NCBI GenBank assembly: GCA_014377705.1
Contig: JACMPC010000125.1
Coordinates: 1 to 38,080 of the forward strand
From: Dermatophilaceae bacterium
GTDB lineage: Bacteria; Actinomycetota; Actinomycetes; Actinomycetales; Dermatophilaceae
Reading direction: 5' to 3'
DNA length: 38,080 bases
Shown here piece after piece: positions 271 through 19,286 of this stretch; position 1 is the stretch's first letter; each line of letters opens with the position of its first letter. The notes beneath the pieces were generated by a model. That model was not told the origin of the DNA and made no database searches. It worked only from the letters and a program-made list of their open reading frames with translations. A program made the translations under genes and the position numbers.

Positions 271-2403
271 TCAGGACTTGGCGGGAAGGACTGACTCGAG
301 CACCACGATCGACCGTCCGGGCACCGCGTGCGTCGTCGCGGCCAGCCAGCTCGGCCGGCCGGTGGCTGGCGGCTCTGCCTCCGACGTATCCAGACGGATC
401 TGCCAGGTGCCGCCGTACTGGGCGGGCGGCAGCGCGAAGTCGACAGGAGCGCTGTGAGCGTTGAAGAGCAGCAGGAAGTCGGAGTCCTGGATGCGCTGGC
501 CGCGGGGGTCCGGCTCGGGGATGGCCTGCCCGTTGAGGAAGACCATGAGGGTGCGGGCGTAACCATTGCGCCAGTCCTCCTCATCCATCTCGGTGCCGTC
601 CGAGGAGAACCACTCGATGTCTCCGAGAGCGCTCTGACCGCCATGGGCGGCGTCGCCGGCGAAGAAGCGACGTCGCCGGAATACGGCATGCTCTTTGCGC
701 AGTGAGACCACGGCACTGGTGAAGGCCAGCAGCTGGCGCTCACTCTGCGCCAGCTTCCAGTCGATCCAGGCGAGCTCGTTGTCCTGGCAGTAGACGTTGT
801 TGTTGCCGTGCTGGGTCCGGCCGATCTCGTCGCCGTGGGCGATCATCGGGACGCCCTGGCTGAGCAGCAGCGTGGTCAGGAAGTTGCGCTGCTGCTGCCG
901 GCGCAGTGCGTTGACGGCGGCATCGTCGGTCTCGCCCTCGGCCCCGCAGTTCCAGGACCGGTTGTGGCTCTCACCGTCCTTGTTCGATTCTTTGTTGGCG
1001 TCGTTGCGCTTCTCGTTGTAGGAGACGAGGTCCCGCAGGGTGAAGCCGTCATGGGCCACGACGAAGTTGATCGAGGCGATCGGGCGGCGTGCCGAGTGCT
1101 CGTACAGGTCGCTGGATCCCGTGAGGCGAGAAGCGAACTCGCCAAGGGAAGCAGCCTCGCCGCGCCAGAAGTCACGCACCGTGTCGCGGTATTTGCCGTT
1201 CCACTCGGTCCACAGCGGCGGGAAGTTGCCGACCTGGTAACCGCCGTCGCCGAGATCCCACGGCTCGGCGATGAGCTTGACCTGGGAGATCACCGGATCC
1301 TGCTGGATGATGTCGAAGAACGCCGAGAGCCGGTCGACCTCATGGAACTGGCGGGCCAGGGTTGCCGCGAGGTCGAAGCGGAACCCGTCGACATGCATTT
1401 CCTCGACCCAGTATCGCAGCGAGTCCATGATCAGCTGCAGGACGTGCGGGTGACGCATCAGCAGGCTGTTGCCGGTGCCGGTGGTGTCGTAGTACTTCGA
1501 CTTGTCCTCGTCCGTGAGGCGGTAGTACGAGGCGTTGTCGATGCCACGGAAGGCGATGGTCGGGCCCTTCTCGTTGCCCTCCGCGGTGTGGTTGTAGACG
1601 ACGTCCAGGATGACCTCGATGTTGGCCTCGTGCAGCGCCTTCACCATGGCCTTGAACTCGGTGACTTGCTGACCACGAGATCCGGTCGCGGCATAGGCCG
1701 CATGCGGGGCCAGGAAGCCGATGGTGTTGTAGCCCCAGTAGTTCGTCAAGCCCTGGTCCACCAGGGTTGAGTCCTGGACGAACTGGTGCACGGGCATCAG
1801 TTCGATGGCCGTCACCCCGAGCCCGGTGAGGTGGTCGATGATCGCCTGGTGACCGATCGCGGCGTACGTCCCGCGAATACTGTCCGGCACATCGGGGTGG
1901 GTCATGCTGAGGCCCCTCACGTGGGCCTCGTAGATCACGGTGTTGTGGTACTCGTGGCGGGGCGGCCGGTCGTGGCCCCAATTGAAGAACGGGGTGACGA
2001 CCACGGACAGCATGGTGTGGCCCAGCGAGTCCGCGTCGTTGAACGTCGCCGGCTTGCCGAGGTCGTAGGAGTACAGGGACCCGTCGCCGTCGATCTGGCC
2101 GTCGATGGCCTTCGCGTAGGGGTCAAGCAACAGCTTCGCCGGGTTGCAACGATGGCCCTTGGCCGGATCGTAGGGACCGTGAACCCTGAAGCCGTAGCGC
2201 TGGCCCGGCTCGATGGCGGGAAAGTAACCGTGCCAGACGTGTCCGTCGACCTCGGTGAGCTCGATCCGGGTCTCGGCCCCGGCATCGTCGATCAGGGCCA
2301 CCTCAACCTTGTCCGCGACCTGCGAGAAGAGCGCGAAGTTGACCCCGCTGCCGTCGAACGTGGCACCGAGAGGGTAGGGATGGCCCGGCCAGGTGGGGTT
2401 CAT
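271..2403 (-). CDS. glgX: Glycogen debranching enzyme GlgX
   Basis: This is a cytoplasmic GH13 isoamylase-type enzyme of 710 aa. It hydrolyses alpha-1,6 branches of phosphorylase-trimmed glycogen. An N-terminal CBM48-like domain (from about residue 5, [18 protein letters not shown]) precedes the catalytic barrel. The barrel shows DGFRFDLA with nucleophile D344, [14 protein letters not shown] with acid/base E380, and VVAHDGFTL with D452. All three catalytic acids are present and the length fits the family. The frame stays open upstream to 2673, but family-like sequence begins at ATG 2403, which has an AAGGA-type ribosome site in GACAAGGACTTC. It is divergent from the GGDEF-EAL gene, so 2404-2628 should hold both promoters. 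Family assignment is firm; the exact start is inferred. Confidence 0.95.
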
Positions 2404-2628
2404 GAAGTCCTTGTCGCAGTCGAGGTGCAGCCGATATGAAGGCCCAGTCTGTCCTGTCAGGTGCCCCGGGACACAACCAGCACACCGACGTGCTGTCTGG
2501 CAATCCTCTTTTCGGGTCGAGTCGGCCGGTGACCGGCCATGTTTCTGTCGTACAAATGGCTGTATGTGGCTCCCACCTGGATGCGTCCTCACGATCGGAT
2601 CACCCTCTAGTTCGGCGCGGCTTAGTTT

Positions 2629-5600
2629 TTGTTTGTGGCATCCTTTTCCGAGCCCTCTACGAGGGCCGCTCAACCGGCCGGCGGGCTCGCCGATGACGAG
2701 CGCGGGCCGACGACCGCCGACTCACCGAGACGGGCGCCAAGGTTTCTCTGGATCGCCTACCTGATCTGGGCCGGAGGGCTCACCTGCTTCTTCTACCTGG
2801 TCACCTCCCTTTCATCGCAGACCTGGATGGTGCTGGGTCTGTCCGCGGTCGTGGCGACGGTCATAGGGGTCCGCCGCAACCGTCCGAGACAGCCATTGGC
2901 CTGGTGCCTGCTCGCCGCGGCCGAGCTGACCTTCATCGCGGGGGACACGAGCTACAACGTTCTGACCGAGGTTATGGGCCAGGACAACCCCTTCCCATCG
3001 GTGGCTGACCTGTTCTACCTGCTCACATACCTCTTCGTTGCCGCCGGCCTCTTCATGATCATCAAGGCCCGTTCGTCGTCCCGGGACATTCCCAGCCTGA
3101 TCGACGCCGTGATCATCACGACGGGTCTGGGCCTGCTGTCCTGGGTCTACCTCATCGTGCCGAACTTCCAGGTAGATGGGCTGGACGCGTTGCAGCGGGT
3201 GACCTCGGTGGCCTACCCGCTCGGCGACGTCCTGGTCCTCGCGATGCTGGCGCGACTGATCGCCGGTGGCGGCCTGCGGATCCGATCCATGCAGTTCCTG
3301 GTGATCGGTGCACTGGGCATCATGGTCGCAGATGCCCTTTACGGGCTAATCCAGCTCAATGGCAAGTGGAAGGTCGGCGGTCCTGTCGATCTCGGCTGGG
3401 CCCTCTTCTACATCGCCTGGGGCGCAGCGGCCCTGCATCCATCGATGCGTGAGCTGACCAAGGTCGCGCCGCTGCCCAGTGTCGCCGTCAGCCGGCTGCG
3501 GATCGTTCTGCTGGCCTCGGCCAGCCTGGTCGCTCCCGGCGTGCTCTTCCTGCAGGCCCAGCGGGGCAAGGAGATCCCGGCGACCACGGTGGCCGTCTTT
3601 TCCGCGGTGCTCTTCATTCTGGTGCTGGCCAGGATGGCCGGCATCCTGGACGCCCATCAGCAGTCGGTCCGGCGTGAACGGTCTCTGCGTACCTCGAGTC
3701 AGGCCCTGGTGGCTGCGCAGGGGCTGCCGGACATCTACAAGGTTGCCCTCGACGGCGCCGCATCCTTGATCGGCGCGGGGACGCTGAAGGCAGCCTCGGT
3801 CTATCTGGCTGACTCCGACGAGATTCACTGCATGGCGAACTCAACCACGAGCCGCAAGCTGCCTGATGAAGCGGCGCTGTGGGATGCCGCACGCGGAGGC
3901 GGCCACCTGAGCGAGTCCGGTGCCGTCAGCGTCAATCCGCTGCGCTATGACCTGCAGGACCGCGGCATGCTCGTCGTCGAGGGCAGGACCGCCCTCAGTG
4001 TCGAGCAGCACTATGCGCTCGCTACCCTGGCCTCCCAAGTGGCACTGGCGGTCGTGAGCGCCACTCTCGCCGAGGAGCTGCGCGATCGCCAGAGCCAGGA
4101 GCAGTTCCGCGGGATGATCCAGAACGCCTCGGACATCATCGTGGTGGTGGACGAGATCGGACTGATCAGCTACGCAACGCCCTCGCTGGAACGCGGACTC
4201 GGGCATCGGGCCAGTGACCTGCTCGGGACTCCGCTGCTTGATCTGCTGCACCCCGAAGAGCTCGCGATGGCAGAGACGCTGATCTCCGGTCTGGCGAGTC
4301 GGCTCTCGCAGTCGCAGGTGGTTTCGGACTGGCGTCTGCGGCATGAAGACGGCCGGTATCTGTTCTTCGAGGTGCTTGCCAGCAACCTTCTGGACAACTC
4401 GAGTGTGTCCGGCGTCGTGCTCACCATGCGCGATGTCTCGGAGCGGCGTGCGCTGGAGCAACAGCTGATGCATCAGGCGTTCCACGACGAGCTGACCGGT
4501 CTGCCGAACCGGGCCCTGTTCCAGGATCGCGTCGAGCATGCGCTCGCGCGCGCCGCCCGAGGTGGCGGCACCGTGGCGATGGCCATGATGGACCTGGACG
4601 ACTTCAAGATCGTCAACGACACCCGGGGCCATGGAGCGGGCGACGCACTGCTGAGTGAGGTTGCCCGGCGGCTCCAGGACACACTGCGCTCCAGCACCAC
4701 CATCGCGCGGCTGGGAGGCGACGAGTTCGCCATCCTGATCGAGGACATCACCGACGGCTCACAGCTCGATGGCCTCACCGACCGCATCATCCGGCCCTTC
4801 CGCCTGCCGTTCGTTGTCGACGGTGAGGAGCTGGTGGCCTCGGCAAGCATTGGCGTGGTTCTGAGCGGCGGCCCTGAGCCGACCCTCAACCTCTCAGAGC
4901 TGTTCCAGTGCGCTGATCTAGCCCTGTATGCGGCCAAGGAGCGCGGAAAGGGGCGCGTGGAGCTCTACCGTGACGACCTGCATACCCGGATGATGAGTCG
5001 CGCAACCCTGCGCACCGAACTTGACGCAGGTATGAAGGAAGAGCAGTTCGAGCTGTACTTCCAGCCTGTCGTGGTGATCGACACGGGGGAGATCCAAGGC
5101 TCTGAGGTGCTGATCCGGTGGAACCACCCCACTCGTGGCCTGGTCATGCCGGGGGACTTCATCGCTCACGCCGAGGAGACCGGTCAGATCGTCGAGCTGG
5201 GGCGGTGGGTTCTCGATCATGCCTGCGCGCAGTGGCGGCAGTGGGCCGACCAAGGGCACTCCAGTCACAACCTGGCCGTGAACGTGTCGGTGCGCCAGCT
5301 GAAGGAAACCGGCTTCGTTGATGAGGTTCGGTCGATCCTGACGCGCCATGCGATGAATCCCGCCGCGCTTGTCATCGAGCTGACCGAGAGCATCTTCGCC
5401 CTTGATGCGTCGAAGATGAAAGAACAGCTGGTCGCGCTCCGGGACATGGGGGTGCGGATTGCCATCGACGACTTCGGCACCGGCTACTCCAGCCTCTCCT
5501 ACCTGCAGCAGTTTCAGATCGACGAGGTCAAGGTGGACAAGGTTTTCGTGGACGGCCTCGGATCGGGGAATCCCGATGATGGCGCACTGGCGAACGCCAT

Positions 5601-6042
5601 CGTGTCCATGGCTCACTCGCTGCGGCTCGAGGTGGTTGCCGAGGGCATCGAGGAAGCCGCTCAGCGAGACGAGCTGTGGTCCATGGGTTGTGGGCTCGGG
5701 CAGGGATATCTGTACTCCAGGCCGGTCCCGGCCTCGGACATGCTCAGCTTGCTGAATGACGGCCGCCCCATGGGCAGGCACGCACCCGGGTCCGACGGGA
5801 GGATCACCCGACTGCGTTCACACGCGCCAGGTGGCCGCCCCACCCCTGCAGCTGCTGAGGCCGATCCCAGCACCAGGCCCGGAGAGGCAAACGCGGCTCC
5901 CCGAGACTCAGCCTCGCGGGATCCAGCCTCACGAAAGGCAGCCCCACGCAAGGCAGCGCCACAAGAGTCAGTGGCCCGAAAGGCAGCACGAGAAGAATTA
6001 GTAGCCCAACAATCAGCGCCCCGGAAGTCAGCATCCAGTTAG
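2629..6042 (+). CDS. Membrane GGDEF-EAL protein with GAF-like and PAS domains
   Basis: Predicted cyclic-di-GMP turnover protein of 1137 aa. An N-terminal multi-pass membrane domain (about 38-345) carries PFPSVAD, SVAYPLGD and DLGW. A GAF-like region (about 350-480) and a PAS domain (about 490-615) follow. The GGDEF domain has LGGDEF at 695-700. The EAL domain has the signature as EVL (826-828), keeping the Glu, and intact IDDFGTGYSS with DD at 947-948. Both catalytic halves look competent, so the protein could make or break c-di-GMP, or the GGDEF may regulate the EAL. From about residue 1065 the tail is Ala/Pro/Arg/Lys-rich with pentapeptide repeats. The start is uncertain: TTG 2629 or GTG 2635, neither with a clear ribosome site. 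It shares its membrane domain and tail style with the protein at 16917-19286. It lies 56 bp upstream of an oxoamine synthase gene. Confidence 0.9.
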   Translation: MFVASFSEPSTRAAQPAGGLADDERGPTTADSPRRAPRFLWIAYLIWAGGLTCFFYLVTSLSSQTWMVLGLSAVVATVIGVRRNRPRQPLAWCLLAAAELTFIAGDTSYNVLTEVMGQDNPFPSVADLFYLLTYLFVAAGLFMIIKARSSSRDIPSLIDAVIITTGLGLLSWVYLIVPNFQVDGLDALQRVTSVAYPLGDVLVLAMLARLIAGGGLRIRSMQFLVIGALGIMVADALYGLIQLNGKWKVGGPVDLGWALFYIAWGAAALHPSMRELTKVAPLPSVAVSRLRIVLLASASLVAPGVLFLQAQRGKEIPATTVAVFSAVLFILVLARMAGILDAHQQSVRRERSLRTSSQALVAAQGLPDIYKVALDGAASLIGAGTLKAASVYLADSDEIHCMANSTTSRKLPDEAALWDAARGGGHLSESGAVSVNPLRYDLQDRGMLVVEGRTALSVEQHYALATLASQVALAVVSATLAEELRDRQSQEQFRGMIQNASDIIVVVDEIGLISYATPSLERGLGHRASDLLGTPLLDLLHPEELAMAETLISGLASRLSQSQVVSDWRLRHEDGRYLFFEVLASNLLDNSSVSGVVLTMRDVSERRALEQQLMHQAFHDELTGLPNRALFQDRVEHALARAARGGGTVAMAMMDLDDFKIVNDTRGHGAGDALLSEVARRLQDTLRSSTTIARLGGDEFAILIEDITDGSQLDGLTDRIIRPFRLPFVVDGEELVASASIGVVLSGGPEPTLNLSELFQCADLALYAAKERGKGRVELYRDDLHTRMMSRATLRTELDAGMKEEQFELYFQPVVVIDTGEIQGSEVLIRWNHPTRGLVMPGDFIAHAEETGQIVELGRWVLDHACAQWRQWADQGHSSHNLAVNVSVRQLKETGFVDEVRSILTRHAMNPAALVIELTESIFALDASKMKEQLVALRDMGVRIAIDDFGTGYSSLSYLQQFQIDEVKVDKVFVDGLGSGNPDDGALANAIVSMAHSLRLEVVAEGIEEAAQRDELWSMGCGLGQGYLYSRPVPASDMLSLLNDGRPMGRHAPGSDGRITRLRSHAPGGRPTPAAAEADPSTRPGEANAAPRDSASRDPASRKAAPRKAAPQESVARKAAREELVAQQSAPRKSASS
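5896..6039 (+). repeat. Degenerate 15-bp tandem repeats coding a C-terminal pentapeptide tail
   Basis: The last roughly 48 codons before the stop show a 15-bp period. Units read approximately ASRKA, APRKA, APQES, VARKA and QSAPRK, with GCA/TCA-GCN-CCN-CGN-AAG-like codons. The reading frame is kept and the array is degenerate. No folded domain is apparent and the composition is basic and Ala-rich. Confidence 0.75.
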
Positions 6043-6098
6043 GTCAGCGGTGAGCAGTCCCGCCGCCGACTCGGTTCCCAACGAGACAGGACACCCGC

Positions 6099-7361
6099 AT
6101 GCCGATTAGCAATCCCGCATTCCGACCGGTTCAGGACGTCAAATGGGCCGACCTCCAGCGACTGCGGACCTTATCTCCGATGTACGACGCGGTGATAGAG
6201 GAAGTGAGAGGAAGACGGATCCGGATCCGGGACCACTGGCTGGCGGACTTCGCCTCGTGCAACTACCTGGGCTTTGATCTCGAGCCGGAGATCATCGACT
6301 CCGTGGATGCCAGCCTCCGGAAGTGGGGAACACACCCCAGCTGGTCACGACTGCTTGGCAACCCGCGCCTGTACATCGACATCGAGGACCGACTCACCGA
6401 GCTCCTCGGCGCCGAGGACACCCTGGTGCTGCCGACGATCACCCACATCCACATGTCGGTCATACCCGCGATCGCGGGACGGGGGGACATCTTCCTGGAC
6501 GGTCAGGCGCACCGGACCATCTACGACGGATGCATGGTTGCCCGAGCCCATGGAGCCACGGTGCGCCGGTACCCGACCGGGGATGTCGCGGCTCTCGACG
6601 CGATGCTCCGGGCTGCGCCGAAGGGCAACACCAAGCTGATCTGCGCGGACGGCGTCAACAGCATGACGGGCAACCCCCCTGACCTCAAAGCACTTGCCGC
6701 GGTCGCTCGCAGGCACGGAGCGCTGCTGTATGTCGATGACGCGCACGGTTTCGGCGTCATCGGCGAGCGCACCAAGTCCGAGACCACCCCCTACGGGAGC
6801 CGGGGGAACTCGATCGTCAGATATGCCGGTGAGACCTACGACGACATCATCCTCGTCGGCGGCTTCTCCAAGTCGTACTCCTCGCTGCTGGCCTTTATCG
6901 CCCTGCCGACCTGGCTGAAGGACCACCTCAAGGTCGCGGCGGCTCCGTACCTGTTCTCCGGTCCGTCGCCCGTCGCCTCGCTGGCCACGGTGCTGGCCGG
7001 TTTTGACGTCAACGACGATCGCGGGGATGAGATCAGGGCCTCCCTCTATCGCAAGACCGCGAAGGTCCTCGACACAACCTCCGAGCTGGGCCTTGCCACG
7101 CCGAACACCTCCGGCCTGCCGATCATCGAGGTGCCACTGGAAGACCCTGAAGACATTGACGAGGTGGGGCACTTCCTGAACGAGGCGGGCATCTATGTCA
7201 CTCTCGCCGCCTACCCGCTGGTGCCACGCGCGGAGGTGGGGTTCCGAATCCAGGTCACGGCGGCCAACGGTGACGACGAGATCGACGAGCTGTGCAGCAC
7301 CCTGCACCTGCTGAGCGAACGATTCCCCCTCCAGAGAAAGCTGCACGAGCAAGTTGCCTGA
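6099..7361 (+). CDS. PLP-dependent alpha-oxoamine synthase (AONS/KBL/CqsA-like)
   Basis: A 420-aa fold-type I PLP enzyme resembling 8-amino-7-oxononanoate synthase, 2-amino-3-ketobutyrate CoA ligase and CqsA/LqsA-type signal synthases. These condense an amino acid with an acyl thioester and lose CO2. Visible motifs are ADFASCNYLGF near residue 50, VDDAHGFGVIGE with cofactor-binding D213 and H216, and GGFSKSYSS with the predicted Schiff-base K258. The usual Gly-rich segment of biotin-type enzymes (GTGSGGSR) reads GTHPSWSRLLGN here, so substrate use probably differs from BioF. No bio genes are nearby. The start is ATG 6099 with only a weak upstream purine stretch. The stop overlaps the next gene, an MFS exporter, by 8 nt (TTGCCTGA), suggesting translational coupling. 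The product is unknown. A secreted aminoketone or lipid-like molecule is inference. Confidence 0.85.
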   Translation: MPISNPAFRPVQDVKWADLQRLRTLSPMYDAVIEEVRGRRIRIRDHWLADFASCNYLGFDLEPEIIDSVDASLRKWGTHPSWSRLLGNPRLYIDIEDRLTELLGAEDTLVLPTITHIHMSVIPAIAGRGDIFLDGQAHRTIYDGCMVARAHGATVRRYPTGDVAALDAMLRAAPKGNTKLICADGVNSMTGNPPDLKALAAVARRHGALLYVDDAHGFGVIGERTKSETTPYGSRGNSIVRYAGETYDDIILVGGFSKSYSSLLAFIALPTWLKDHLKVAAAPYLFSGPSPVASLATVLAGFDVNDDRGDEIRASLYRKTAKVLDTTSELGLATPNTSGLPIIEVPLEDPEDIDEVGHFLNEAGIYVTLAAYPLVPRAEVGFRIQVTAANGDDEIDELCSTLHLLSERFPLQRKLHEQVA

Positions 7362-8664
7362 CACTGCGGCCCAAACCCCGAAGCTCCTGGCGCCTTTGCG
7401 TCACCGGGATTTTCGGCTGCTGTGGATTGGCGCCTCCGCGTCACTGGTCGGTGACGGTGTCTACCTCATCGCCCTGGCCTGGCAGGCCTACACCCTGTCG
7501 AGCTCGCCCGCCGCCCTGGCCATGCTGGGAGTCTGCGCCACGGTGCCACAGCTCCTGGCGCTGCTGGGCAGCGGAATCCTCAGCGACCGGGTCGATCGTC
7601 GGCTGATCCTGCTCGGCGCTGACGTCATCCGTTTCGTCGCGGTCCTCGTGGTGGCCGTGCTGGTCATGTCCAGCACTGCCACCATGTGGCAGCTGGCGGT
7701 GCTCAGCGTCGTCTACGGGCTCGGAGCCGGAACCGCTGCACCGGCCTTCGACGCGATCATCCCGGACCTGGTGCCGGAACAGGACCTGGAGCAGGCCAAC
7801 GCGCTGGACCAGTTCCTGAGACCGGCCATGCTGCGCCTTGCCGGGCCGGCACTGGGCGGGCTCCTGATCGCCGTCGGCGGCGCCGGCGCCGCGTTCCTGT
7901 TCGACTCCATCACCTTTCTCGTCTCAGGCCTGTGCGTGTGGCGGATGGTGAGCCACTCACGGGCCGCCGACCCCACAGACCGGGCAGACCCGGCTTACTC
8001 CGGCGAGCGCACCTCGGTGCTGTCCGATGCCATGGCGGGCGTGCGCTTCGTCAGGAGTCGAACCTGGTTGTGGGGAACCCTTGGCTCGGCCACCGTGGCG
8101 TACCTGGCGTTCATGGGTCCCATCGAGGTGCTGCTGCCGTACCTGGTCAAGGAGGTGCTGCACGGCCCGGCCACTGACTTCGGCATCATCCTTGCCGCCG
8201 GCGGGGTCGGTGCGCTGGCCGCCGCGGCCATCGTCGGGCAGGTGGGCCTACCGCGCCGCCAGCAGACCTTCATGTACATCTGCTGGACTCTCGCCGCACT
8301 GTCCGTGGCGGGCTTCGGGCTGGCCACTGCGGGATGGCAGCTCATGATTGTCTGTATGGTCCTGAACGGGCTGGAGGCGGCCGGGACAGTTGCCTGGGCC
8401 ACCACCAAACAACGCCTCGTCCCCGCCGACATGCTCGGACGGGTATCCAGCCTGGACTGGTTCATCTCCATCGCCGGACTGCCGGTGTCTTTCGCGCTGA
8501 CAGCCCCGGTGGCCGCCCTGATCGGGGTCCGGGCAACGTTCATCGGGGCGAGCCTGCTCTGCGCGGGTGTGACTCTGACGGCACTGTTCTTGCCCCATAT
8601 GCGGGATGTGGACGGGGCGCTGGGGACCACCCAGGCGCCCGCGCTGGAGGCGGATGCGGCATGA
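7354..8664 (+). CDS. MFS transporter (EntS/MFS_3-like exporter)
   Basis: A 436-aa major facilitator with about 12 hydrophobic segments. It opens with LRHRDFRLLWIGASASLVGD, the typical start of EntS/drug-exporter-like MFS proteins. The cytoplasmic loop 2-3 motif A is present as GSGILSDRVDRRLILLG near residue 75. It begins at TTG 7354 inside the last codons of the oxoamine synthase, and its stop overlaps the next start as ATGA (8661-8664). This is operon packing, so export of the synthase product is a reasonable inference. The substrate cannot be read from sequence. Confidence 0.88.
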   Translation: MPDTAAQTPKLLAPLRHRDFRLLWIGASASLVGDGVYLIALAWQAYTLSSSPAALAMLGVCATVPQLLALLGSGILSDRVDRRLILLGADVIRFVAVLVVAVLVMSSTATMWQLAVLSVVYGLGAGTAAPAFDAIIPDLVPEQDLEQANALDQFLRPAMLRLAGPALGGLLIAVGGAGAAFLFDSITFLVSGLCVWRMVSHSRAADPTDRADPAYSGERTSVLSDAMAGVRFVRSRTWLWGTLGSATVAYLAFMGPIEVLLPYLVKEVLHGPATDFGIILAAGGVGALAAAAIVGQVGLPRRQQTFMYICWTLAALSVAGFGLATAGWQLMIVCMVLNGLEAAGTVAWATTKQRLVPADMLGRVSSLDWFISIAGLPVSFALTAPVAALIGVRATFIGASLLCAGVTLTALFLPHMRDVDGALGTTQAPALEADAA

Positions 8665-9113
8665 GGAAGGCCATACTTCAGGAGCTCCTCAGTGACCTTT
8701 CGGCGGCGTTCGCGACAAGGGACCCGGAGAGGCTCCTAGGACTCTTCAGCGCGACGGCCGACGTCACCTATGCAGGCTCGGAACGCGGCGAGCGGGCGAC
8801 AGGTCCGACCGAGCTTCGCCGGATGTTGTCAGATCTGCTCGCCCGCCCCCAGACCTACACCTTCGACTTCCCTGCCGTCACCTTCAGCGAGCACAGTGGC
8901 CTGGTCTGGCTGCTCGCAGACGGTGACTGCACGGAAACCGGTGCGGACGGCGTGACGGATACCTTCGCGTACCGGCTGACCGGGGTGCTCGCCAGGGAGA
9001 CCGGGCGGTGGCGCTGGCTGGTTCTGGTCGGCTCAGAGCCGACAGAGCCAGACGAGCAGCACATCGACACCGTCGGCGCCGCGCCACTTCCGGGAGCGAC
9101 CCCCTCCGGGTGA
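8661..9113 (+). CDS. NTF2/SnoaL-like small protein
   Basis: A 150-aa protein with the pattern of the NTF2-like (SnoaL, DUF4440) superfamily. An N-terminal helix leads to LSAAFATRDPERLLGLFS, then a TYAGSERGE strand, and the end is strand-rich (FAYRLTGVLARETGRWRWLV). Members are small cone-shaped folds that act as cyclases, isomerases, hydrolases or binding modules. No catalytic set can be assigned. ATG 8661 overlaps the stop of the upstream MFS gene by 4 nt, so it belongs to the same operon. It might act on or bind the product of the oxoamine synthase. That role is inference. Confidence 0.75.
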   Translation: MRKAILQELLSDLSAAFATRDPERLLGLFSATADVTYAGSERGERATGPTELRRMLSDLLARPQTYTFDFPAVTFSEHSGLVWLLADGDCTETGADGVTDTFAYRLTGVLARETGRWRWLVLVGSEPTEPDEQHIDTVGAAPLPGATPSG

Positions 9114-9132: not shown

Positions 9133-9864
9133 TCAGAGGTGCTGAACCCAGAGGTTCTCTTCGACGTACGTTCCCGTGTCCTCTTCCCTGCTGATGTCGA
9201 CCGGACCGAGCGAGCCTGGCACGAGGTACCGCCCGGTCTCCGGGAACACCATGCCGGTCCAGGACTCCCACTGCGCGATGGTCCCGGTGATCACCATGGA
9301 CCGCGCGGCGGGGGCGAGGATGGTGGCTCCCATCCGCTGGTGGGTTCGGATCCAGGGATCGATCGACAGCCCGTCCTTGCCGGTCCAGGTCGCGAAGCTC
9401 GACATCGGGGTGAGCGGGTACCTCGGCTTCAGGGTCGGGCGCACCGGGGCGATGACATGGGACAGCCCGGCCGCAACCCCACGGGCCCGCACGGCTGTCA
9501 AAATCTTCCCGGCCAGGCCCCGTCCGGTCTCACCATCGATCACCGCGACCGTCATGTAGGTCAGCGTCGTCGGCTCGATGCCGTTCTCATGACCTTTGAC
9601 CGCGCGGACCATGGTGTCGTCATAGCCGTCGGGCAGGTCTTCGAGCGTGCCGTCCCAGTGAATCGCCACGCCCCAGGCGCCGGCAACAACTCGGTCCCCC
9701 TCCAGCATCAGGACGTCGTACTGCGCGAAGAACTCCGCGACCTGAGCCTCGTACCGCATCATGACCGGGTCATGGGGAAAGAGGAACTCGGGCCACTTGC
9801 CCCGGAGAGCCACGTCCGCCTCACGCTTGAGATCTGGTCGATCACAGCTGGTGACGATCTCCAT
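9133..9864 (-). CDS. GNAT-like N-acetyltransferase
   Basis: A 243-aa protein that looks like a GCN5-related acyltransferase. The segment TYMTVAVIDGETGRGLAGKI (about residues 107-126) resembles the GNAT strand-4 and acyl-CoA pyrophosphate-binding loop (R/Q-x-x-G-x-G/A). It is followed by a helix and RPTLKPRYP. The C-terminal half is longer than in minimal GNATs and is not recognised. ATG 9864 is chosen because the sequence becomes protein-like there. The frame continues upstream to 10173 but that part looks unrelated. The gene converges with the NTF2-like gene, with 19 bp between stops. The substrate is unknown. Confidence 0.7.
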   Translation of the reverse strand: MEIVTSCDRPDLKREADVALRGKWPEFLFPHDPVMMRYEAQVAEFFAQYDVLMLEGDRVVAGAWGVAIHWDGTLEDLPDGYDDTMVRAVKGHENGIEPTTLTYMTVAVIDGETGRGLAGKILTAVRARGVAAGLSHVIAPVRPTLKPRYPLTPMSSFATWTGKDGLSIDPWIRTHQRMGATILAPAARSMVITGTIAQWESWTGMVFPETGRYLVPGSLGPVDISREEDTGTYVEENLWVQHL

Positions 9865-10050
9865 GAGGCCCAGCCTAGCGCGGTTGCCGGGTCGGGAGGG
9901 TCCGCGGCGGTGTGCACAGTGGGTGGCCTCCGCGCACGTGGTCACCGCGCCCGGCTCGATCTCCGACGAGCCGTCGGAACGGTTGCCACGCTTGTTCTTG
10001 AGCCGTTGCCGCGCGAAGGCGTTGCGGGTCCCGTCATCCAGGACAGGAGG

Positions 10051-10173
10051 ATCAAAAGCAGGTCGGCCCCGGTCCCTGCGCGCGATCCCCTCGCGCACCG
10101 CAGGATCGGCCAGAAGGACGTTGTATTCCGAAAGGGCGGGGGGACTGGTGGGTGCCTGCTTCCGTGAAGTCAT
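10051..10173 (-). pseudogene. Possible N-terminal remnant of an AidB-like acyl-CoA dehydrogenase
   Basis: An ATG at 10173 opens a frame whose first 41 residues resemble the N terminus of AidB-type acyl-CoA dehydrogenases: PPALSEYNVLLADPAVREGI compared with the usual PPL-x-x-YNL...DPAL-x-EA pattern. After about residue 41 the similarity stops and the frame runs on, unrelated, into the GNAT-like gene. No FAD-binding or catalytic part is present. I read it as a decayed 5' fragment. The match is short and from memory, so it could be coincidence. Confidence 0.35.
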
Positions 10174-10329: not shown

Positions 10330-10402
10330 GCGGACATAGCTCAGTTGGTAGAGCGCAACCTTGCCAAGGTTGAGGTCGCCGGTTCGAGCCCGGTTGTCCG
10401 CT
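10330..10402 (+). tRNA. tRNA-Gly (anticodon GCC)
   Basis: The cloverleaf is complete. Acceptor arms GCGGACA and TGTCCGC pair over seven bases with discriminator T. A GCTCAGTTGGTAGAGC D-arm, an anticodon loop with GCC in CTTGCCAAG, and a GGTTCGAGCC T-arm are present. CCA is not encoded. It is first of three closely spaced tRNA genes. Confidence 0.97.
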
Positions 10403-10463
10403 CGAAGGCTTCATGCCTTCGCCGAAGGCCCCACCGGCTTTCTGCGAGGGCGTGAACCGTCAC

Positions 10464-10534
10464 GGTGGAGTGGCCGAGAGGCGAGGCAACGGCCTGCAAA
10501 GCCGTCTACACGGGTTCAAATCCCGTCTCCACCT
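10464..10534 (+). tRNA. tRNA-Cys (anticodon GCA)
   Basis: Acceptor arms GGTGGAG and CTCCACC pair over seven bases with discriminator T. The anticodon is GCA in CCTGCAAAG and the T-arm is GGGTTCAAATCCC. Length is 71 nt and CCA is not encoded. Gly-Cys-Val clusters are common in Actinobacteria. Confidence 0.97.
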
Positions 10535-10552
10535 CGACTAACCCACACCAAT

Positions 10553-10624
10553 GGGCGGTTGGCGCAGCGGTAGCGCGCTTCCCTGACACGGAAGAGGTCG
10601 CTGGTTCGATCCCAGTACCGCCCA
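10553..10624 (+). tRNA. tRNA-Val (anticodon GAC)
   Basis: Acceptor arms GGGCGGT and ACCGCCC pair over seven bases with discriminator A. The D-arm is GCGCAGCGGTAGCGC, the anticodon GAC lies in CCTGACACG, and the T-arm is CTGGTTCGATCCCAG. Length is 72 nt with no encoded CCA. A strong hairpin follows 13 bases later. Confidence 0.97.
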
Positions 10625-10637
10625 CGAGCACGATACG

Positions 10638-16916: not shown

Positions 16917-19286
16917 CTACGACCATGGCGACGCGTCTTGTGGTGACGCGTCTTGTGGTGACGCGTGTAGTGGTGACGGGATCCCGCGGAGCCAGCTGCC
17001 CGGGGAGCTCAGCAAAGCGTCGACGGACTCCGCAGAAACAGCCTTGGAGAACAGGAAGCCCTGGGCGCGGTGGCAGCCGAGGTCGGTGAGAGCGTCACGC
17101 TCCGCCTCACGTTCGATGCCCTCGGCCACGACGGTGAGGCCGACTCGCTCGGCGAAGGCCAGAACTCCGGCGACGAAGCGATGCCGGGTGGTGTCCTGGT
17201 CCACTCCGGTGATGAACGAGCGGTCGATCTTGACCTCGTCGATTGGGAGGTCCCTGAGTCTGGCCATCGAGCTCAGACCGGTGCCGAAGTCGTCCACCGA
17301 GAGCCGTATCCCGAGCCGCCGGAGCTCGTGACAGACCGTGAGGCTGATTGCCGTGTCCATCAGGCCCCCCGTCTCGGTGATCTCGAGCACCAGCCGGTCG
17401 CCGGCCAGGCAGTGCCGTTTCAGCTCGGCGGCGACGGTCCGCGGGAGCGTGGGTGAGGACAGCTGCCCGGGGCTCACGTTGACGGCCACCCGAACCTCCG
17501 AACCACCCGGTAGGGCCGTCCACCTTGCCAGCTGGTCACACGCCTGCGCCAGGACGAACTCGAACAGCGGATCGATGAGCTCACAGTGCTCGGCCACCCG
17601 CACGAAGACCTCTGGGTTTATCGGGCGTCCCTCGGGCGCCCACCGCGCCAGCGCCTCCAGCATGTCCAGCCGGCCGGTCGACAGGTCGATGATGGGCTGG
17701 AAGGCCACCGTGATCTCGTTCTTTGCCAGGGCCACGGCAAGGGCCCGCCCGAGCTCGACGTCGTCGATCTCATCGAGCTGAAGCCCTGCGGTGTGCACGA
17801 GGACATCGGCCCCGCCACGGCTCTTGATGACGTACATGGCCAGGTCCGCGCTGAGCAGCAGGTCATCGACGGTGGGGGTGTGGTCGATCAGGTCAACCCG
17901 CGCCACCCCGATGCTGGCGCGCACGGACATCTCCCGATGGCCGAAGGGGAAGGGCTCCGTGAGGCTATTCAGCAGCGCACAGGCAACCTCACCCGCGTCG
18001 ATCCGGTCTTCCAGCAGCACGGCGAACTCGTCACCGCCGAACCGCGCCAGCGTATCGGCGCCGGACAGCACCTCGCCGAATCGTGCCGAGACCCGCTGCA
18101 ACAGATCGTCACCAGCACTGTGACCCAGCTTGTCATTGACCGCCTTGAAACCATCGAGGTCGAGGAAGCAGATGGCCAGTGGCCGGCGGTCGCGACGGTG
18201 CAGCTCAAGAGCGTGTGACAACCGGTCGACGAACAGGGCCCGATTCGCGAGTCCGGTCAGCTGGTCGTGGAAGGCCTGATGCCGCAGCTCGGACTCCGTC
18301 TGGGCGAGCGCCAGGGCGAGCTTCTGGTTGTCGCGGACCGTGAAGAACTGTCGGGTCACGACCAAGAGCACGATCACGCCCGTCATCACCACCTCAAAGG
18401 TCGAAGGGGTGAGCCCGGAGGTATACCGCCAGCCGATGAACACGAAGGCGCCACCGAAGGGGATGTAGGGCAAGATGGCGCCGGCAACCGTGGGGCTCTG
18501 CGCCGGCGCCTGGCTCGAGGTCGCGCCAGGGGTCAGTGATGCGAACGCGAAAGTCCCGAAGGCGAAGAACCAGCCGAGGTCGAACATGCTGCCGGTGGCG
18601 TAGGACTCCTTGGCGACAAGGAAGGCAAAACCGCTGTCCGCCACCGTCATCATCAGGAGTCCGAAGGCGACGAACGCGAGAGGCTCCCGGTAGGCGGCTG
18701 CCCGGGACAGGACAAGGAAGCAGACGACCAGCAGCACGATGTCGGACAGGGGGTAGGCCACCGACACGGCCGTCGCAAACGGTGAGGTGCCGCCGGCCTC
18801 GACCACTGCTCCCAGCACCGTCGCCCAGGACATGAGGCCGATTGCGCTGGTGATCAGGAGGGCGTCCAGGGTCATCCGGCGCCGGTCGGCACGGGAGGCG
18901 TTGGCGGGGAAGAGGGTGAGCGCGATCACGGCCCCGACCGGGAAGCCGAGATAGCCCACATCGGCCAGACCCGGGAACGGTGTCGCCGTGTGCTGGACCA
19001 GCTCGTACCACGACCAGACCGCCTGGCCAATCCCCCAGGAGAGGCAGGCCATTGCGAGACCAGCCCAGGCGGCACGGAGTCGTCCCGAGCCTCGAGAGGC
19101 GGCCAATGCACAGTTGGCCCCGCCCAGCAAAGCGGCCATGGTCATGGAGATATCCACAAAAGGACGGTCCACGTTGCCGGTGAGATACGTGGGGACGACG
19201 ACGATAAGCAGGAGGGCGGTCAACAGTCCCACGACGCGGCTGACGCGGCTGAAGCGGCGCAGTCGCAGGGCGGTCAGATCCGTCAT
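16917..19286 (-). CDS. Membrane GGDEF-EAL protein
   Basis: A 789-aa predicted c-di-GMP enzyme. The N-terminal multi-pass membrane domain (about 15-320) has PFPGLAD, SVAYPLSD and DLGW, the same markers as the protein at 2629-6042. GGDEF follows with RFGGDEF (GGDEF at 417-421), LTGLANRALF and FLDLDGF. The EAL domain has MLEALARW (EAL 544-546), EITETGG, VDDFGTGLSS (DD 665-666), DEVKIDRSF and VAEGIE. All key residues for both activities appear present, so net activity is unknown. No PAS or GAF lies between membrane and GGDEF domains. The C terminus has two exact and one partial ASPQD repeats. ATG 19286 is taken as the start. The gene is divergent from nhaA. Confidence 0.92.
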   Translation of the reverse strand: MTDLTALRLRRFSRVSRVVGLLTALLLIVVVPTYLTGNVDRPFVDISMTMAALLGGANCALAASRGSGRLRAAWAGLAMACLSWGIGQAVWSWYELVQHTATPFPGLADVGYLGFPVGAVIALTLFPANASRADRRRMTLDALLITSAIGLMSWATVLGAVVEAGGTSPFATAVSVAYPLSDIVLLVVCFLVLSRAAAYREPLAFVAFGLLMMTVADSGFAFLVAKESYATGSMFDLGWFFAFGTFAFASLTPGATSSQAPAQSPTVAGAILPYIPFGGAFVFIGWRYTSGLTPSTFEVVMTGVIVLLVVTRQFFTVRDNQKLALALAQTESELRHQAFHDQLTGLANRALFVDRLSHALELHRRDRRPLAICFLDLDGFKAVNDKLGHSAGDDLLQRVSARFGEVLSGADTLARFGGDEFAVLLEDRIDAGEVACALLNSLTEPFPFGHREMSVRASIGVARVDLIDHTPTVDDLLLSADLAMYVIKSRGGADVLVHTAGLQLDEIDDVELGRALAVALAKNEITVAFQPIIDLSTGRLDMLEALARWAPEGRPINPEVFVRVAEHCELIDPLFEFVLAQACDQLARWTALPGGSEVRVAVNVSPGQLSSPTLPRTVAAELKRHCLAGDRLVLEITETGGLMDTAISLTVCHELRRLGIRLSVDDFGTGLSSMARLRDLPIDEVKIDRSFITGVDQDTTRHRFVAGVLAFAERVGLTVVAEGIEREAERDALTDLGCHRAQGFLFSKAVSAESVDALLSSPGSWLRGIPSPLHASPQDASPQDASPWS
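16929..16973 (-). repeat. 15-bp tandem repeat at the 3' end of the GGDEF-EAL gene
   Basis: Three head-to-tail 15-bp units (TGACGCGTCTTGTGG and close variants on the plus strand) code for the C-terminal pentapeptides ASPQD, ASPQD and a variant. Two units are identical or nearly so, which suggests recent slippage. Confidence 0.85.

Follow-up and report, generated by a model that had tools for sequence, protein, structure and literature searches.

The window analysed here is a 38,080-nt stretch of DNA from a Dermatophilaceae bacterium (GCA_014377705.1, contig JACMPC010000125.1, positions 1-38,080, forward strand), and its element of interest is a run of four genes encoding a membrane sensor protein with PAS, GGDEF and EAL domains, an alpha-oxoamine synthase (AOS), an exporter of the major facilitator superfamily (MFS) and a SnoaL/NTF2-like protein (Table 1). 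A preliminary description had reported that the last three genes are joined by overlaps of 8 nt (AOS/MFS) and 4 nt (MFS/SnoaL-like, ATGA) and follow a GGDEF-EAL gene by 56 bp, and the coordinates of the open reading frames (ORFs) bear out both statements; the ORF list opens the SnoaL-like frame at 8334, which only extends it upstream into the MFS gene, and its start is taken as 8661. The sensor protein carries the GGDEF motif RLGGDEFA, the EAL motif EVL and intact EAL catalytic motifs, by which it is predicted to be an enzyme of cyclic di-GMP (c-di-GMP) turnover. The exporter had been called EntS-like, which holds at family level only: it scores 129.9 bits with the EntS model (cut-off 324) and 236 with that of Tet(V) (cut-off 640). 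The SnoaL-like protein shows similarity of the SgcJ/EcaC type, below cut-off.

Table 1. Features of the four-gene cassette, in window coordinates
Feature	Position	Strand	Remarks
Membrane sensor PAS-GGDEF-EAL protein	2629..6042	+	1137 aa; PAS, GGDEF and EAL by Pfam
N-terminal ten-helix membrane domain (10TM sensor)	2737..3678	+	no Pfam family; AlphaFold model
PAS domain	4099..4437	+	PF00989, residues 491-603
GGDEF domain (diguanylate cyclase)	4477..4953	+	PF00990, residues 617-775
EAL domain (c-di-GMP phosphodiesterase)	5017..5724	+	PF00563, residues 797-1032
Alpha-oxoamine synthase (AOS), pyridoxal phosphate (PLP)-dependent, fold type I, GTHPSWSR clade	6099..7361	+	420 aa, ATG start; PF00155 (Aminotran_1_2)
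GTHPSWSR loop, in place of the usual G-x-G-type loop of the family	6327..6350	+	alignment
MFS_3 exporter	7354..8664	+	436 aa, TTG start; Pfam MFS_3
SnoaL/NTF2-like protein	8661..9113	+	150 aa; Pfam SnoaL_3

Conservation of this arrangement was assessed with profiles run over six-frame ORFs within 6 kb of the synthase. From 125 loci examined, 8 duplicates were dropped to leave 117 distinct loci, the locus L039 having been excluded beforehand because it lies on the same contig as L092. The 10TM sensor domain accompanies the AOS in 113 of the 117 and a GGDEF-EAL gene in 108, which, together with the 44 fusions described below, makes the previously suspected c-di-GMP link a strong one. Of the four loci lacking the sensor, L082 and L119 lie at contig ends, L092 has a 5'-truncated gene and L245 is a distant relative; the GGDEF-EAL gene is missing from L231 and L238 only through contig ends (4469 and 3788 bases). 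When only loci with 4-kb flanks to either side and an AOS score >550 are counted, a filter that excludes the kinase-only loci L227, L228, L243 and L247, both partners are present without exception (84/84). A GGDE[FY] motif is found in 98 of 101 neighbour proteins, the remaining three being gapped in the alignment. Since EAL genes are few (13 genome-wide matches in the 3.8-Mb window genome, 5 in the 9-Mb genome of S. gardneri), the adjacency of AOS and GGDEF-EAL genes goes beyond chance. The genomes sampled for the class include 39 listed for f37, and among these a strong sensor match (E <=1e-112) is confined to the six that have an AOS, the other 33 reaching 1e-33 at best; three of the six (G518, G599 and G645) are absent from the sensor model. 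Gene order is GGDEF-EAL, AOS, MFS, SnoaL in the five genomes first read, the window included; the order AOS, sensor-GGDEF-EAL, MFS also occurs in the phylum sample, and the f36 loci have GGDEF-EAL and Aat, AOS in mostly convergent arrangement. Taken together, a functional linkage of the AOS with the sensor protein is close to certain. Around 2000-9000 of the contig shared by L039 and L092 (UBA4719), the 5'-truncated EAL gene stands beside an integrase-like ORF and large ORFs that by eye look like tail-sheath genes, suggesting a phage insertion or a misassembly.

Co-occurrence of the three downstream genes in other genomes, a check set beforehand, was found, although the trio is a unit in part only. 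The steadiest partner of the synthase is the sensor domain, above the exporter (44/117), and the SnoaL-like gene is optional (21 loci, all with an MFS gene). A methyltransferase gene is present at 47 loci, 3 of them with an MFS gene and none with a SnoaL-like gene; in Streptomyces it takes the place of SnoaL. A gene for Leu/Phe-tRNA-protein transferase (Aat) is found at 13 loci and lies by the AOS in all 12 f36 loci read (L080-L091); the single one compared with NCBIfam models exceeds the cut-off for aat. These f36 loci suggested an Aat-based, tRNA-dependent tailoring, an idea left out of the model; it was weakened because the Aat gene is the sole PF03588 gene in each of eight f36 genomes searched and still lies about 1.5 kb from a 10TM gene in G517 and G546, where no AOS matched. 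One Streptomyces locus (L155) also has an Aat gene near the AOS, and no such gene was found in 10 of the 12 Streptomyces searched. The pairing of Aat and 10TM sensor genes in G517 (C1 1047032-1049931) and G546 (C1 2098260-2101165) links an N-degron enzyme to a sensor.

The window AOS has its closest relatives in L039 (88% identical) and L040 (84%), where the order of the four genes is unchanged, in L040 within a different neighbourhood. Because the same 8-nt and 4-nt overlaps recur in both, these overlaps are more than chance. In a set of 58 genomes, its own included, only these two others hold an AOS more than 80% identical, every other match being 25-33%. Of the 396 genomes sampled for the order, 2 carry the clade, as do 36 of the 394 sampled for the class, by a profile from three sequences and with the window genome counted; with a profile from 23 sequences, again counting that genome, it was found in 26 of 396 genomes of the phylum. 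A scan of named genomes returned at least 577 relatives, and the best 80, which were kept, come from Streptomyces, Actinoplanes, Paractinoplanes, Dactylosporangium, Kineosporia, Solirubrobacterales, Acidimicrobiia, Euzebyaceae and Catenulispora. Among viral contigs, a search found no relative, and the 644 matching plasmid records were all below 60% identity, with the clade not found there; on a Methylocystis plasmid (L190), an AOS is part of a longer protein, and the gene of an AMP-binding protein follows it.

Pfam, residue alignment and structure agree in placing the enzyme in the AOS superfamily, with fold type I, the PLP lysine and the stacking histidine. Window residues H138, S188, D213, H216, K258 and R383 align with BioF H133, S179, D204, H207, K236 and R361, the PLP residues being conserved. 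Opposite BioF N47 and T233, the four clade members compared have C54 and G255, both invariant among all 23 aligned sequences. The GTHPSWSR segment, described earlier as atypical, is real and defines the clade: WGTHPSW[SC]R is present in 23/23 aligned AOS sequences and PSW[SC]R in 114 of the 117 loci, the misses being L243 (GVHPSWTR), L245 (match begins past the loop) and L246 (AOS read in two frames). In a tree of 33 rows (9/28 actinobacterial rows; the PRK07505 outlier L197 removed), 11 clade members separate from BioF, Kbl, HemA and SPT with 100/100 support, and a first quick tree that included L197 agreed on a separate clade. The tree thus bore out the expectation that the synthase falls outside the BioF and Kbl clades, with HemA and SPT likewise outside. 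NCBIfam places the three scanned clade members below every cut-off, the best BioF score of the window AOS being 193 vs 426. The enzyme also scores 132.6 vs 342 with PRK07505 (NF005697), whose members are likewise uncharacterised AOS relatives, the one seen (L197) lying beside an MFS gene. The best structural match of the AOS model is 5vnx (Z 39.7, 2.6 A over 364 residues), Z is 33-40 to BioF, Kbl, HemA and SPT structures alike, and the model has low confidence at residues 72-90, the GTHPSWSR loop. By these comparisons, the window AOS is assigned to an actinobacterial clade outside BioF, Kbl, HemA and SPT, from which it differs in its loop, its substrate-side residues and its gene context.

The N-terminal 10TM domain of the sensor protein has no Pfam match at E 0.5. 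Its AlphaFold model (pLDDT 91, pTM 0.86) consists of ten long helices, for which Foldseek gave no match at E 0.001. The best comparison with the seven-helix (7TM) rhodopsin/GPCR-like fold reached Z 11.6 over 185 residues, against a stated helical-bundle level of 13, and neither Foldseek nor VIA found a clear structural relative. In L227, L228, L243 and L247, the kept sensor carries a histidine kinase output (with a receiver in L227, HisKA_3 in L228 and L247, hybrid in L243), and in L226, L229 and L234 it carries a PAS-HisKA kinase, each beside a second copy with GGDEF-EAL; L229 and L234 were assigned by inspection of the translation and the other five by Pfam. In the sensor tree, L243 (kinase) and L244 (GGDEF-EAL) have sister sensors, and their AOS are of a distant kind, 38-39% identical to the window AOS. 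Because several deep lineages swap GGDEF-EAL for a histidine kinase, the sensor is a steadier partner of the AOS than c-di-GMP, and sister sensors with swapped outputs are what would be expected if the synthase needs the sensor and not c-di-GMP.

At 44 loci, all Streptomyces or Streptomyces-like (38 of 42 Streptomyces loci and 6 of 6 g151 loci), sensor, GGDEF, EAL and AOS lie in one reading frame, with the AOS continuing in frame from EAL through a linker that is a few dozen residues long (7 inspected). In S. gardneri, S. narbonensis and S. zaomyceticus, which we take to be close relatives of S. venezuelae, there are five EAL proteins each, the best-scoring of which is the fusion, whose frame spans about 1600 aa. 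For the 10TM domain, exactly two matches occur in S. gardneri, the fusion and a 1074-aa frame with a weaker EAL domain, as CdgC would be; the EAL of CdgC is degenerate, whereas CdgF is the one protein of this architecture in which it is intact. According to the accessible text of two papers, five S. venezuelae proteins combine GGDEF and EAL, one of which, CdgF, is a membrane-bound 10TM-PAS-PAC-GGDEF-EAL protein without a defined function (PMC6205966, PMC13232838), and in the text available of the former, the mutant phenotype is not reported to give CdgF a developmental role under the conditions used (PMC6205966). The number of such proteins and the architecture, which is that of the window sensor protein and of the N-terminal part of the fusion, agree, and by elimination in these three other species the fusion is probably CdgF. 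However, the architecture given in the accessible published text names no AOS domain, and the comparison covered species other than S. venezuelae. A full-text literature search for an AOS or aminotransferase fused to GGDEF/EAL found none, most subscription journals lying outside that search.

The nearest functional parallels are CqsA/CqsS of Vibrio, LqsA/LqsS of Legionella and JqsA/JqsS of Janthinobacterium, in which the gene of an AOS-fold synthase stands beside that of a membrane sensor; the available text states that such synthase genes are always adjacent to the cognate sensor kinase (PMC3566124). The same adjoining of synthase and membrane sensor is seen in the 113 loci counted above. CqsA was compared with the clade by profile and structure only; its structure matches the AOS model (Z 34.8, 3.7 A over 363 residues) at only 17% identity in the structural alignment. 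With NF005526 (CqsA/LqsA), the window AOS scores 67.2 bits and two clade members 60.7 and 85.4, against a cut-off of 428. The suggested relation to CqsA and LqsA thus stands as a good functional analogy and fails as membership, and the window clade differs further in its mostly GGDEF-EAL output, the Streptomyces fusion and the added exporter and tailoring gene.

Gene order, overlaps, fusion, conservation, intact catalytic motifs and fold are the basis on which the four genes at 2629-9113 may be viewed as a small-molecule circuit of synthase, tailoring enzyme, exporter and sensor, usually with c-di-GMP output, a proposal for which we see about as much chance of being right as of being wrong. 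The AOS, going by the reaction type of its family, would catalyse the condensation of an amino acid and an acyl thioester, giving an alpha-aminoketone; the product might then be tailored by the SnoaL-like protein, or by the methyltransferase in Streptomyces, and exported by the MFS_3 protein. We infer that this product acts as a signal and, above all, that it or a derivative is the ligand bound by the ten-helix domain of the neighbouring protein. The ligand state would be passed through PAS to the balance of GGDEF and EAL, so that product level would be read as c-di-GMP. Such a circuit would work like CqsA/CqsS and LqsA/LqsS, with c-di-GMP output replacing the phosphorelay, and in Streptomyces synthase and receptor would share one polypeptide, probably CdgF. 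The broader idea, that Actinomycetota across the phylum may signal through an aminoketone-type autoinducer of the new AOS clade, a ten-helix receptor and direct c-di-GMP turnover, in Streptomyces within one polypeptide (CdgF), is offered tentatively and with more doubt than confidence.

Several observations weigh against such a circuit. No MFS gene lies within 6 kb at 73 of the 117 loci. An AOS relative stands without the sensor in the distant L245, and at L092 the EAL gene lacks the sensor end. The 80 named loci represent the top scores and are rich in Streptomyces. The 10TM domain occurs in 205 of 394 class genomes (1e-20) vs 36 for the AOS; being common without the AOS, with six matches in the window genome, it is not a dedicated receptor family. 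The sensor tree groups AOS-linked f36 and L138 copies with unlinked sensors, and four unlinked copies with AOS-linked ones, so that the correspondence between sensor and AOS is imperfect.

Control might also run in the reverse direction, with the sensor reading an outside cue and local c-di-GMP or a phosphorelay switching the AOS, whose product would be an effector and not the ligand. This is in our view rather unlikely. The fusion and the 56-bp neighbourhood would suit local control of a target enzyme, and 10TM-PAS-GGDEF-EAL proteins, which are common without an AOS, are stand-alone sensors, but the scanned window and fusion proteins showed no domain for c-di-GMP binding other than GGDEF-EAL. 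Moreover, in L227, L228, L243 and L247, where the stretch read holds no GGDEF-EAL gene within 6 kb, c-di-GMP can hardly be the common regulator, because the partner is a histidine kinase. The 44 in-frame fusions and the sensor in all 84 well-flanked loci exceed what mere co-regulation would predict, and we therefore consider improbable an ordinary secondary-metabolite or envelope-lipid operon beside a regulator. Its exporter and tailoring genes do differ between lineages, as in metabolite clusters, and the SgcJ/EcaC-type similarity would fit such an operon; however, the shared neighbours are methyltransferase, Aat and MFS genes and not polyketide synthase, nonribosomal peptide synthetase or acyl ligase genes (Pfam on part of the neighbours). 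That the AOS is a stand-in for BioF, Kbl, HemA or SPT, with which it shares the fold and PLP residues, is hardly credible given its separate clade, its scores under every curated cut-off and the replacement of BioF N47 and T233.

Elsewhere in the window, a second 10TM-GGDEF-EAL gene of a different sensor subfamily lies 8 kb downstream, at 16917-19286 (-). An ORF at 9133-10173 (-), kept at 79% beside the cassette in L039, has no Pfam match over its full length, and its 9136-9888 part matches neither Pfam nor NCBIfam. Consecutive genes for tRNA-Gly, tRNA-Cys and tRNA-Val follow shortly after the cassette, at 10330-10625, and might mark an insertion site.

Streptomyces is a genus known for antibiotics, c-di-GMP controls its development, and what GGDEF-EAL proteins respond to is for the most part yet to be learned. 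The available text says as much of the PAS and GAF domains of the Streptomyces proteins (PMC6205966), and the function of CdgF was still called undefined in the accessible part of a 2026 paper (PMC13232838). A synthase fused to a GGDEF-EAL protein names a chemistry to look for, and the coupling, throughout the actinobacteria, of an unstudied AOS family to a membrane sensor of predicted c-di-GMP turnover suggests that a new chemical signal may enter a major bacterial control circuit. If the product is indeed the ligand, this would provide a testable signal-to-c-di-GMP circuit in an antibiotic-producing genus.
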